From Mangrovihabitans endophyticus (lineage in GTDB: Bacteria; Actinomycetota; Actinomycetes; Mycobacteriales; Micromonosporaceae): a DNA stretch of 64,000 nucleotides. The position numbers and the translations under genes were made by a program. The stretch covers positions 139,832 through 203,831 of the forward strand of contig NZ_BMMX01000003.1 in the NCBI RefSeq assembly GCF_014646155.1, read 5' to 3'. Positions 49,982 through 54,076 of the stretch are shown here, one piece after another. Below the pieces are notes generated by a model. The model worked only from the letters and a program-made list of their open reading frames with translations, made no database searches and had not been told where the DNA came from. Position 1 is the stretch's first letter. Each line of letters begins with the position of its first letter.

Positions 49982-50088
49982 GACGGCCCGTGGGCGCCGG
50001 CGAACCGGCGATCAGAGAAACAACCATGCAGCCGCTCCTACCCAGCATCGGCCGGGCCATGCGCCCGCGCCGGACCGGCCGATGCGCG

Positions 50089-50463
50089 TCAGGGCCAGAG
50101 CGCCTGCGCCACCGCGACGCCGCAGAACGCCGCGCCGAGCCCGGCGACGATGCTCGCGGCGACATTGAGCACCGCGTACGCCCGGACCCGGTCCTCCAGC
50201 AGACGCAGCGTTTCGAACCCGAACGTGGAATAGGTGGTCAGCGCCCCGCACAGGCCGGTGCCCAGCAGCGACCCGACCGCGCCCGACACCCGATGCTCGG
50301 CGGCGCCCTGGATGAGGACGCCGAGCAGGAACGAGCCGATCACGTTGACGGTGAAGGTGCCCCACGGAAACACCGAGTCGTGGCGCGCCTGCACCGCTCG
50401 GTCGGCGAGGTAGCGCAGCGGGGCGCCCACGGCCGCCCCGAGCATCACCAGCAGCACGGTCAT
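50089..50463 (-). CDS. crcB: Fluoride exporter subunit CrcB/FluC (copy 1)
   Basis: Four-helix membrane protein of 124 aa forming dual-topology or paired fluoride channels. Seen: [30 protein letters not shown] and the pore signature [19 protein letters not shown] at 50463 overlaps the DUF190 stop (ATGA). It is the third gene of crcB-DUF190-crcB. Gram-positive bacteria often use two different subunits in a heterodimer, which fits two copies here. No fluoride riboswitch was recognised upstream of the operon. Confidence 0.93.
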
Positions 50464-50810
50464 CGCCGGCTCCCCGCAGGGCGGCCCACGTACCGGATGA
50501 CCTCGACCGGGTCGATGATGACCAGACCCTCGGTGACCAGTTCGTCGAGCGCGGGGAGGAACTCGCGCACCCGGTCCTCCTGGTCCACGATGATCACCGC
50601 GATCGGCAGGTCCTCGGACAGCGACAGCAGCCGCGTGGTGTGAATCCGCGACGAGGCGCCGTAGCCTTCGATGCCGCGCAGCACGGAGGCGCCGGCCAGG
50701 CCCGCGTCGTGCGCCCGGCGCACGATCTCGTGATAGAGCGGCTTGTGATGCCAGACGTCGTCCTCGCCCACGAAGATGGTCAACCGGACGGCCGGTCCTT
50801 CGATCTTCAC
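50460..50810 (-). CDS. DUF190 protein encoded between two crcB genes
   Basis: Small soluble protein of 116 aa with the DUF190 pattern ([44 protein letters not shown], in parts). It has a PII-like ferredoxin fold, ends in VEVIRYVG, and binds no known cofactor visible here. It overlaps both flanking crcB genes by ATGA, so the three are translated together. DUF190 proteins are repeatedly found next to crcB; a PII-like regulatory role on the channel is plausible but not established. Confidence 0.88.
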
Positions 50811-51334
50811 GTCGCCTCCTCACCTGGAGTGCCTCGATCGTCCCGGCGGCGTTCGGCGTGGGCACGTCGCCCGCGCCGGGTGATCAGGCGGGCCAGCGTG
50901 ACCCCGGCGTAGACCGCGGCCAGCGCCGCCACCACCGTGCCGGCCAGGTAGAACAGCCCGGTGCGGGCCGCCCCGGAAGCCACCAGAGCGCGCACCTCGA
51001 CCGCGTAGGTGGAGAACGTGGTGTAGCCGCCCAGCACGCCGACGCCGAGGAACGGCCGGATCAGCCGGTGTGCCGACCACACCTCGGTGATCAGCACCAT
51101 GAGCACGCCGATGAGAAAACACCCGGAGACGTTTGTCGCGAAGGTCGCCCACGGCACCTGCCCCGGGGCAGGGGTCCACGCCTGCGCGATCGCGTAGCGT
51201 CCGAGCGCGCCGAGGGCGCCGCCCGCCGCGATGGCGCCCAGCACGGCCCACGGCGCGCGGAAGATCTCCCGGCGTTGCCGGGCCACGTGCAGGTCGACAT
51301 CAGAGTCCCGGGGCAGCCGGGTGGTCTGTGACAC
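50807..51334 (-). CDS. crcB: Fluoride exporter subunit CrcB/FluC (copy 2)
   Basis: Four-helix fluoride channel subunit of 175 aa with longer charged termini than copy 1. Seen: [31 protein letters not shown] and the pore segment [15 protein letters not shown]. The GTG at 51334 was chosen because GGTGGGGGAA stands just upstream; the frame runs to 51367. The Arg-rich cytosolic C-terminus ([14 protein letters not shown]) is unlike copy 1. First gene of the operon and divergent from a sulfotransferase gene. Confidence 0.9.
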
Positions 51335-51492
51335 GAATTTCCCCCACCGGTGCCGCGAACCTCGCACCGACTCTACTCCCGCCCCGGCCGGGCGGCCGTG
51401 CAGGCCGCGTCACCGGGTGTTCACGTGCTCCCCGCTGCCCGCACACATCGGGCACGGCTGATGCTCACCACCCCGGCGCAACATGCGCTGCC

Positions 51493-52404
51493 ATGGTGAA
51501 GGTCTTGTACATCGCGGGCTGGGGGAGAAGCGGGACGACGATCGTCGACAACGTCCTCAACTCCTACGATGCGGTCTTCTCCACCGGGGAGCTGAGCTAC
51601 CTCTGGTCGCGGGGCGTGGGGATGCGGCGCAGGTGCGGGTGCGGCGAGACGTTCGACGAGTGCCCGCTCTGGCAGAAGGTGCTCTCGGTCGCGTACGGCG
51701 GACGGGTCCCGGACCCGCGGCACGTCATCGGCCTGCAGCAACGGGCGGTCCGGGCCCGGCACACCAGGTCCCTGCTCAACGGGCCGCTGCCGGCGGACGC
51801 CGCGGAGTATCTGGCCATCACCGCCCGGCTTTACAACGCGATCGCCGAGGTCACCGGCGCGGGGCTGATCGTGGACTCGTCCAAGACGCCGTCCGGCGCG
51901 GCGCTGCTGTCACGCATGCCCGGCATCCGGCCATACCTGCTGCACATGGTCCGCGATCCGCGGGCGGTGGCGCACTCCTGGACCGGCGCCGCGCCGCCGC
52001 CGGAGACCCGCGGCGGCGCCCCGATCAAGCAGCGACCCGCCTCCAGCACCGTGCACTGGGTGGTCCGCAACGCGATGACCGAGCGGGTCGCCGGCGCGTA
52101 TCCGCAGCGGCATCTGCGCCTGCGCTACGAGGATTTCGTGGCGTGGCCCCGGCCATCCGTGCGGCGCGTGCTCGACCTGACCGCGACCGGCGACGAGGGC
52201 GATCCGTTCACCGGCGCGGCGACCGTCGCGCTGCGACCCAACCACAACGTGGCGGGCAACCCCGGACGGCTGCGCAACGGCGAGATCGAGTTGCGGCTCG
52301 ACAACCGGTGGCGGGACGCCCGGCGACGCGGCCTGTGGCTCACCTCCACCGCGCTGGCCATGCCGCTGCTGCACCGGTACGGCTACCACCTGCGCCCTCT
52401 ATGA
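51493..52404 (+). CDS. Sulfotransferase-family protein
   Basis: Cytosolic PAPS-dependent sulfotransferase-type protein of 303 aa. The 5'-phosphosulfate-binding loop is GWGRSGTTIVDNVL at residues 8-21. A CXCGETFDECP cysteine-rich insert lies near 50-60, the 3'-phosphate motif RDPRAVAHSW is near 155, and RYEDFVAWP follows. It would move a sulfo group from PAPS to a hydroxyl or amine of an unknown acceptor. ATG at 51493 begins directly at the loop-bearing strand. The next gene on the same strand, 39 bp on, is the aminotransferase homologue. Confidence 0.87.
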   Translation: MVKVLYIAGWGRSGTTIVDNVLNSYDAVFSTGELSYLWSRGVGMRRRCGCGETFDECPLWQKVLSVAYGGRVPDPRHVIGLQQRAVRARHTRSLLNGPLPADAAEYLAITARLYNAIAEVTGAGLIVDSSKTPSGAALLSRMPGIRPYLLHMVRDPRAVAHSWTGAAPPPETRGGAPIKQRPASSTVHWVVRNAMTERVAGAYPQRHLRLRYEDFVAWPRPSVRRVLDLTATGDEGDPFTGAATVALRPNHNVAGNPGRLRNGEIELRLDNRWRDARRRGLWLTSTALAMPLLHRYGYHLRPL

Positions 52405-52443
52405 TCCCCTCGCGTGGCGTGCAGGTGACCGGGAGGCGAGCCG

Positions 52444-53367
52444 ATGCTGCAGACCTACGACGAGCGCAACGCGGACATCCACTACTGGGTGGACGGGACG
52501 CTGCGGCACCGCAGCGAGCCGGGGCTCTCGCCGTTCGATGCGGTGGTGCAGGGTGGCGATGCGGTCTGGGAGGGCCTGCGGCTGTACGCGGGCGCGGTGT
52601 TCGGCCTCGACGAGCACCTGGCCCGGTTGCGCCGGTCGGCCACCGCCCTGAACTTCGCCCAGATCCCCGGGGACCGGCAGATCACCGAGGCGGTGGCCGC
52701 CACCCTGCGGGCGAACCGGATGTTCGACGGCGTGCACATCCGGCTGACGCTGACCCGCGGCGTGAAGATCACCAGTGGCATGGACCCGCGACTCAACGCG
52801 TCCGGTCCCACGCTGATCGTGCTGGCCGAGCACAAGGCCCCGGTCTACGACACCGGAGGGTTGCGGCTGGCCACGGCGAGCGTCCGGCGGCCCGGCCCGG
52901 ATGTGCTCGATCCCCGGATCCACCACGCGAACCTGCTCAACTCGATCCTCGCCAAGATCGAGGCGAACGCGGCGGGTGCCGACGACGCCCTGATGCTCGA
53001 CCAGCGCGGATTCGTCGCGGAGACCAACGCCACCCACTTGTTCGCGGTGGTCGCGGGCGTGCTGGTGACGCCTTGCACGTACGCGTGCCCGGAGGGCATC
53101 ACCCGGCGGACCGTGCTGGACCTCGCGGACGGTGACTCCGTCCCGGTGCGGGTGCGCGACGTGTCGCTCACCGAGATGTACACCGCGGACGAGGTGTTCT
53201 GCACCGGCACCATGGGGGAGATCGCCGGCGTCACCACGATCGACGGGCGGACCATCGGCGCGGGGCGGCCGGGCCCGCTGACCCTGCGCCTGGCCGAACT
53301 GTACCGGGAGCATGCCCGCACGCACGGCACCCGGCTGGTGGACCCGCCGGACCCGGGCGGCCGGTGA
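52444..53367 (+). CDS. Fold-type IV aminotransferase homologue lacking the usual PLP lysine
   Basis: Protein of 307 aa in the branched-chain/D-amino-acid aminotransferase family. Seen: GGDAVWEGLRLY, the first-domain Arg in HLARLRRS, ITRRTVLDLA, and FCTGTMGEIAGV (phosphate site). Aligned by eye with D-amino acid transaminase, RIHHANLLNS falls on DIKSLNLLGN. The catalytic Lys is thus replaced by His, followed by the conserved LAKIEA. Either the family uses PLP differently or it has another activity. Starts with GGGAGGCGAG before ATG 52444. It lies between a sulfotransferase and a convergent sulfotransferase-like gene. Confidence 0.82.
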   Translation: MLQTYDERNADIHYWVDGTLRHRSEPGLSPFDAVVQGGDAVWEGLRLYAGAVFGLDEHLARLRRSATALNFAQIPGDRQITEAVAATLRANRMFDGVHIRLTLTRGVKITSGMDPRLNASGPTLIVLAEHKAPVYDTGGLRLATASVRRPGPDVLDPRIHHANLLNSILAKIEANAAGADDALMLDQRGFVAETNATHLFAVVAGVLVTPCTYACPEGITRRTVLDLADGDSVPVRVRDVSLTEMYTADEVFCTGTMGEIAGVTTIDGRTIGAGRPGPLTLRLAELYREHARTHGTRLVDPPDPGGR

Positions 53368-53374
53368 GCCCGCG

Positions 53375-54076
53375 TCACAGGCGGTGGGCCGACAACCCTT
53401 CGTAGTACGGCCGGGCGGCGGCGACGAGCGGCCGGAGCCGGGCGGGCACGTCGGCCGGCGCCGGATCGTACGCGGCGAAGCCGGTGGACTCGTTGACCGC
53501 GGCGTACCAGTGCGGCGCCCACACCCCGTCGGTGTCCCGGGGGCCGGGCGGCCAGGACAGCATCGCCGGATCGAAGCCGATGCCGAGCGCGTCGCACAGC
53601 CGCCGCAACACTCTCGCCGGGTCGCGCAGCACGTCCGCGGCGTCGATCACCGGTCCGCCGTACCGGCGAAAGATCTCGGCCTGCTGCGGATAGCCCAGAT
53701 CGGCCATCTCCGGTTCGCCGCGCACTCGCGCGTACGACGAGACGACGTGTTCCGGGTCGCGGATGAGGTAGGCATGGGTGAGCGCGCCCAGCCAGGAACG
53801 GCCGACACCGGGCAGCAGGTGGTGGGCCATGTGTTTCTGATAGAACACCGTGGCGTCGCCGGGGACCGGGCCGGTGAGCGCCGCGGCCACGTCCTGCCAC
53901 CGGTGCGGCTGGCCGGCGAGCACCGCGTCGCGGCCGGGGTGGTCCAGCCCGGTGACGGCAAGGTAGTGCGCATACAGCGGCTCGTCGACCACCACCGTGT
54001 CAGCACGCGACCCGAAGCTGCGCATCATCGCGGTGGAGATGTTGCGCGGCCCGGACCACATCGCCACTCGTCGCAT
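53375..54076 (-). CDS. Sulfotransferase-like protein of the aminotransferase-associated type
   Basis: Protein of 233 aa. N-terminal loop MWSGPRNISTAMMRSFGSR is a sulfotransferase 5'-phosphosulfate loop variant, and LIRDPEHVVSSYARV matches the 3'-phosphate site. Proteins of this type are frequently mis-annotated as branched-chain aminotransferases, in my recollection because they occur fused or adjacent to such domains. Here the aminotransferase homologue ends 8 bp away on the other strand. ATG at 54076 chosen; the frame runs on to 54190. Substrate unknown. The pairing suggests a shared pathway (inference). Confidence 0.8.
   Translation of the reverse strand: MRRVAMWSGPRNISTAMMRSFGSRADTVVVDEPLYAHYLAVTGLDHPGRDAVLAGQPHRWQDVAAALTGPVPGDATVFYQKHMAHHLLPGVGRSWLGALTHAYLIRDPEHVVSSYARVRGEPEMADLGYPQQAEIFRRYGGPVIDAADVLRDPARVLRRLCDALGIGFDPAMLSWPPGPRDTDGVWAPHWYAAVNESTGFAAYDPAPADVPARLRPLVAAARPYYEGLSAHRL

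Follow-up and report, generated by a model that had tools for sequence, protein, structure and literature searches.

The closest described relative of the aminotransferase-fold protein discussed here is an aminotransferase-like protein of Variovorax paradoxus (PDB 7z79), which has the same class IV fold, is about 40% identical, and has no PLP-binding lysine. A further entry, 9j32, is according to its title the N174K mutant of this Variovorax protein. In plants, the branched-chain-amino-acid aminotransferase-like (BCAL-like) proteins 1 and 2 carry a PF19798 (Sulfotransfer_5) domain and a PF01063 domain in one chain, with the motif IHHNN and a His at the lysine site. A literature search made mostly without subscription journals found no publication that deals with the Variovorax protein, the chemistry of PF19798, or the function of the plant fusion, and none that couples the loss of the lysine to PF19798; in the accessible parts of two papers (PMC12506393; PMC11625862), PF19798 is merely listed among Pfam numbers. 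The archaeal branched-chain aminotransferases 5cm0, 5e25, and 5mqz have the same fold as our protein, and 5cm0 also shares its phosphate-binding residues but, unlike it, keeps the lysine. For the sulfotransferase half, the nearest solved structures in a profile search are 4gox (1.3e-7) and CurM (4gbm; 6.4e-7), but these are polyketide synthase domains, and we know of no aminotransferase-fold partner for either. Sulfotransferases of the CurM type convert a hydroxyl to a leaving group by sulfonation. The sugar 3-dehydratases ColD and E1 are relatives of other aminotransferases, of fold type I. These enzymes have a His in place of the PLP lysine, as is found at His160 of the protein described below, and use it as both acid and base with a PMP cofactor (PMC8987622).

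In the window (the whole stretch of 64,000 nucleotides of Mangrovihabitans endophyticus that was analyzed), a lysine-less class IV aminotransferase homologue of 307 aa is encoded at 52444–53367 on the forward strand. The class IV (fold type IV) domain and fold are recovered both by the PF01063 profile (9.5e-42) and in an AlphaFold model; in a Foldseek search with this model, all 50 top matches shown are aminotransferases, and VIA-align concurs. In sequence alignments, the codons of His160-His161 (52921–52926, forward strand) stand at the place of the Lys-Ser of PLP-binding homologues, and the canonical PLP-binding lysine position is His160. The alignment rows were grouped by the site residue itself (277 His, 38 Asn, and 11 Lys rows, with two rows cut at the site), and the residues that we take, from class IV transaminases, to be the remaining phosphate and pyridine contacts are otherwise kept in the His type. 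Arg46 (52579–52581, forward strand), by analogy presumably the PLP phosphate contact, is Arg in 277/277 His-type, 38/38 Asn-type, and 11/11 Lys-type rows; Thr220 is present in 277/277 and Thr256 in 273/277 His-type rows. Glu193 (53020–53022, forward strand), by the same analogy presumably the contact to the pyridine nitrogen, is Glu in all 277 His-type and all 11 Lys-type rows and Thr in all 38 Asn-type rows. Transamination via the canonical lysine is excluded for the window protein, from which that residue is absent, and the best reading of the alignments is that the His-type fold IV domain in general no longer transaminates with it. Since the Asn type has lost Glu193 too, PLP use is less likely there, and this type may have drifted further than the His type.

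The convergent partner, at 53375–54076 on the reverse strand, encodes a PF19798 sulfotransferase of 233 aa (5.2e-69; 232.5 bits against a cut-off of 23.2). Both PAPS-type motifs, SGPRNIST and IRDPxxxxxS, are present with their invariant residues. The former lies within WSGPRNISTA (54029–54058, reverse strand), which we take to be a motif of the 5'-phosphosulfate loop type and in which W7, P10, R11, S14, T15, and A16 are invariant in 18/18 aligned family members; the latter is IRDPEHVVSS (53735–53764, reverse strand), presumably of the 3'-phosphate binding type, in which Arg106, Pro108, and Ser114 are likewise invariant in all 18. The original prediction, made from the letters of this stretch, had proposed a fold-type IV homologue with His for the PLP lysine and a convergent neighbor with sulfotransferase loops, and the profiles, alignments, and motifs given above confirm both. 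Distant sulfotransferase matches also occur in two plasmid records.

The two genes occur together well beyond this strain. Among 396 Actinomycetota genomes, the same 26 hold a lysine-less aminotransferase and a PF19798 protein of at least 137.8 bits (the 137-bit line was chosen after a gap from 137.8 to about 82 bits had been seen in the PF19798 scores), and the two genes are adjacent in 26/26. The site residue of these 26 aminotransferases is His in 8 and Asn in 18. Lower-scoring PF19798 places (45 listed at 52–83 bits and 7 below that) are not counted as partners. Thirty Actinomycetota aminotransferase loci were read (26 lysine-less, four with Lys); among the matches beyond these thirty, which comprise lower-scoring ones and a second copy in genome G308, a distant lysine-less copy without a PF19798 partner may exist. 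The four Lys loci, which are the next aminotransferase matches (L058–L061), have no PF19798 protein in either the locus or the genome. Within the Micromonosporaceae sample, 13/61 genomes carry the sulfotransferase and the same 13 carry the aminotransferase, as a close His-type match in 12 and as an adjacent Asn-type copy in the 13th (G457). The pair abuts in the family genomes except in G445, where its members are 1.06 kb apart.

Genomes with the pair also tend to encode an APS kinase: a match is found in 25 of the 26 pair genomes versus 221 of the 370 others (Fisher p 8e-5, with kinship not corrected), and the one pair genome without a match, G394, is 60% complete. This excess, confounded as it is by kinship, backs PAPS use by the PF19798 partner indirectly. 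A second, divergent PF19798 group (52–83 bits), whose members are not aminotransferase partners, has an APS kinase match within about 7 kb in at least 14 of the 45 listed places, as counted by eye (e.g., G119:C129, G087:C6, and G098:C5). The proximity of these genes backs PAPS use by the PF19798 family.

A third gene, of the PF13469 (Sulfotransfer_3) family, lies 39 bp upstream of the aminotransferase at 51493–52404 on the forward strand (PF13469 1.9e-11). In 11 other family genomes that have a close aminotransferase match, no PF13469 match at E <= 1e-30 stands beside the aminotransferase, and the best match to the gene in another family genome is 50% identical. The original prediction had joined all three genes in one sulfo-transfer pathway. 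The 39-bp spacing and the shared strand in the window speak for such an arrangement, but the absence of the gene beside the aminotransferase in 11 relatives and its 50% best outside match make a pathway that unites both sulfotransferases with the aminotransferase very unlikely; judged from these comparisons, the PF13469 gene probably stands outside the PF19798/aminotransferase system. What stands of the earlier proposal is the tie between PF19798 and the aminotransferase, for which co-occurrence, adjacency, and fusion all speak; the co-occurrence of the His-type aminotransferase with an SGPRNIS-type protein, offered with that proposal as a check, extends far wider than the window. Farther upstream, at 50012–51367 on the reverse strand, two putative fluoride channel ORFs flank a third ORF; we take these to be two CrcB/FluC genes with a DUF190-like gene between them.

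The wider range of the pair was surveyed by scanning a genome collection with an alignment of aminotransferase-linked sulfotransferases; the best 80 of at least 583 stretches were used, a sample that leans to that clade. The record titles of these best 80 of at least 583 loci span about a dozen phyla, naming Actinomycetes, Planctomycetota, Chloroflexota, Poribacteria, Latescibacterota, Gammaproteobacteria, and Bacteroidetes, together with Balneola, Verrucomicrobia, Trueperaceae, Calditrichia, Neomarinimicrobiota, and Bryobacterales. In 58/80 of them, PF19798 has an aminotransferase frame next to it (59 when L083 is included, a locus of genome G404 in which the start of an aminotransferase directly follows the sulfotransferase and is cut off by the contig end). 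Two of the adjacent copies are cut short, and the site is readable in the other 56, where it is His in 22, Asn in 34, and Lys in none. In 19 more of the 80 genomes a lysine-less copy is found elsewhere in the genome (15 His, 4 Asn), and the 11 further class IV copies read there have Lys. All 75 readable sites among the best 80 loci are thus His or Asn and none is Lys. A lysine-less aminotransferase was not found in two of the 80 PF19798 genomes, G408 and G414, both of which are metagenome bins. The order of the genes follows the site residue: the Asn type lies upstream of the sulfotransferase in 34/34 cases, and the His type lies downstream in 20/22, upstream in one, and fused in one.

No third gene conserved across phyla was found among the clustered ORFs of at least 100 aa of the 80 loci, and the ORF clusters listed besides the pair and antisense frames are mostly local to one clade. 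An ABC-type ATPase found at 19 loci was rejected as a third member: its distances are scattered and the family is very common. In eight Acidimicrobiia-type loci (L085, L101, L110, L120, L122, L126, L129, and L132), an ABC permease of the branched-chain amino acid type lies upstream on the strand opposite to the pair (PF02653 in L101, the one tested), and in seven of these eight an aconitase X protein lies downstream (PF04412 in L129, the one tested). The permease beside the Acidimicrobiia-type pair possibly serves clade-local import of the substrate. Ten gammaproteobacterial loci (L070, L073, L093, L098, L099, L103, L121, L124, L135, and L136) have a glutamate-cysteine ligase on the opposite strand, whose start lies 1.7–6.3 kb beyond that of the sulfotransferase frame (PF04262 in L136, the only locus tested).

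In the window the pair consists of two convergent, unfused genes. The planctomycete locus L064 has both halves in one frame, PF19798 followed by PF01063, and is the single such fusion (1/80) among the best 80 of at least 583 bacterial loci. A search with this fusion returns 836 proteins, of which the 120 listed all carry both Pfam domains and have His at the site (120/120). The named organisms among these listed fusions are plants, ranging from mosses and liverworts through a lycophyte to flowering plants; a few rows come from EukProt, and many are without a name. Many of the listed plant fusions are named or annotated as branched-chain-amino-acid aminotransferase-like proteins. Identity to the planctomycete query is 50–55% from row P0251 on, with the exception of P0255, which reaches 64% over 55% of the query. 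A PF10294 methyltransferase domain is added in five listed plant fusions (P0281, P0305, P0338, P0354, and P0359) and is N-terminal in P0305, the one tested. A structure model of the fusion has a pTM of 0.69 and a pLDDT of 91.5, with the relative placement of the domains unsure.

A tree of 78 aminotransferase rows, made by a quick method with long branches flagged, only 13 Lys rows, and the root placed on the Lys rows by assumption, resolves the His (47), Asn (18), and Lys (13) sequences into three groups with a total of two changes. The plant and EukProt fusions fall inside the bacterial His type. Six residues (Asn9, Arg23, Trp42, His98, Glu129, and Asn195) are common to both lysine-less types and unusual in the Lys type, being present in every His-type row and missing from at most one Asn-type row; Asp156 and Thr197 belong to the same signature and occur in all but one His-type row. 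With the root assumed on the Lys rows, the His and Asn types are probably sisters. Because of the shared residues and the three-group tree, the loss of the lysine is an old one that has been retained, and a loss in one strain only is ruled out by the 277 His-type rows and by the His in 120/120 listed fusions.

At the level of sequence, the near-obligate pairing and the absence of Lys are established, as is the retention, in the His type, of the remaining PLP contacts. We propose, with moderate confidence, that this aminotransferase-fold protein and its PF19798 neighbor form one enzyme system in two halves, encoded by separate genes in the window and joined in a single chain in plants, that would combine sulfo transfer from PAPS with PLP or PMP chemistry on the same compound. 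The sulfotransferase half would pass the sulfo group to a small compound of the amino or hydroxy kind. The fold-type IV half would hold PLP or PMP with no lysine bonded to it, His160 being a candidate acid/base. Sulfonation could make a hydroxyl a leaving group, which the PLP/PMP half would then eliminate; this sub-step is speculative and put forward tentatively, and is the likeliest chemistry since ColD/E1 eliminate a hydroxyl with His for Lys and CurM-type sulfotransferases activate one. A B6 chemistry divided between two proteins (fused in plants), in which PAPS sulfonation is followed by the action of a His-for-Lys fold IV protein with free PLP or PMP that either eliminates the sulfo group or supplies an enamine for C-sulfonation, is likewise a conjecture of modest weight. 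A new chemistry of the aminotransferase fold is plausible. Somewhat doubtful is the idea that the fold IV half is a pseudoenzyme that performs no PLP chemistry and serves to bind the substrate or stabilize the sulfotransferase; Lys is indeed present in no paired copy read and 38/38 Asn-type rows have Thr in place of the pyridine Glu, but Arg46, Glu193, and Thr220 are unchanged in 277/277 His-type rows and the site His is kept from actinomycetes to plants, both of which go beyond the needs of a scaffold.

Two further accounts involve conserved basic residues. Lys108 (52765–52767, forward strand) and Lys131 (52834–52836, forward strand) are invariant in both lysine-less types (277/277 His-type and 38/38 Asn-type rows, or all 315), and K131 (or K108) might form the Schiff base from a different side of the pocket, as a relocated lysine that would leave a PLP enzyme of the ordinary kind. 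In one alignment the K131 column holds a Trp in 5cm0, and in E. coli IlvE a Trp of this kind is part of the pocket lining; another alignment, however, places a Lys of ordinary enzymes in the K108 and K131 columns, such that the match shifts with the alignment. The title of 9j32, moreover, describes a Lys restored at the old site of an Asn-type relative (N174K), suggesting that its crystallographers saw no substitute, and we regard a relocated lysine as improbable. Apart from a Schiff base, K108 and K131 could provide sites for an anionic (sulfo) substrate. PLP enzymes make aminoacrylate, and in a C-sulfonation the fold IV half would make or hold an enamine (e.g., 2-aminoacrylate) to whose carbon the sulfotransferase adds the sulfo group, giving cysteate; the pair would then supply the 2-aminoacrylate sulfotransferase that taurine and DHPS synthesis are assumed to use. 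The basic K108, K131, and H98 would suit a sulfonate, and a diatom metabolic model that includes a hypothetical DHPS pathway assumes such a step (PMC7990286). Against this, no gene cluster recurring beside the pair in different phyla hinted at cysteate or taurine, as judged from the clustering of the neighbors. Land plants, to our knowledge, are not known as major makers of taurine, and we consider C-sulfonation, and with it the identity of the pair with the assumed enzyme, unlikely.

Compared with the described systems, the preferred reading of a two-part sulfotransferase and fold IV enzyme differs in several respects. The Variovorax protein, the top match by both sequence and structure, shares the AEHK motif and the D-x-R-N start of the window protein, but has Asn at the Lys site and a replaced pyridine Glu. 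As in the BCAL-like proteins of plants, PF19798 goes together in the window with a class IV domain that has His where the lysine would be; the plant proteins are fused, some with PF10294, whereas the window has two convergent genes. The pieces were already in databases (the 7z79 and 9j32 entries, the plant names, and the Pfam domain pairs), and what is added here, relative to the literature found, is the link between the loss of the lysine and PF19798. A protein of plants and many bacterial phyla is called an aminotransferase yet lacks the defining residue, and its near-obligate pairing points, as a pattern of genes, to a widespread two-part enzyme in many bacteria and plants. The tie to one sulfotransferase family points to sulfur metabolites that require PAPS and opens the function to tests in Arabidopsis, Physcomitrium, or Actinoplanes. 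If His indeed works in place of Lys, the system would be a rare example in nature of PLP chemistry that does without a Schiff-base lysine, and we know no worked-out example of this in fold type IV. ColD and E1 differ in fold and have no sulfotransferase, so their likeness to the class IV window protein is one of analogy only; were that analogy to hold, the ColD/E1 trick would have arisen a second time, independently, in a different fold and across about a dozen bacterial phyla and plants.
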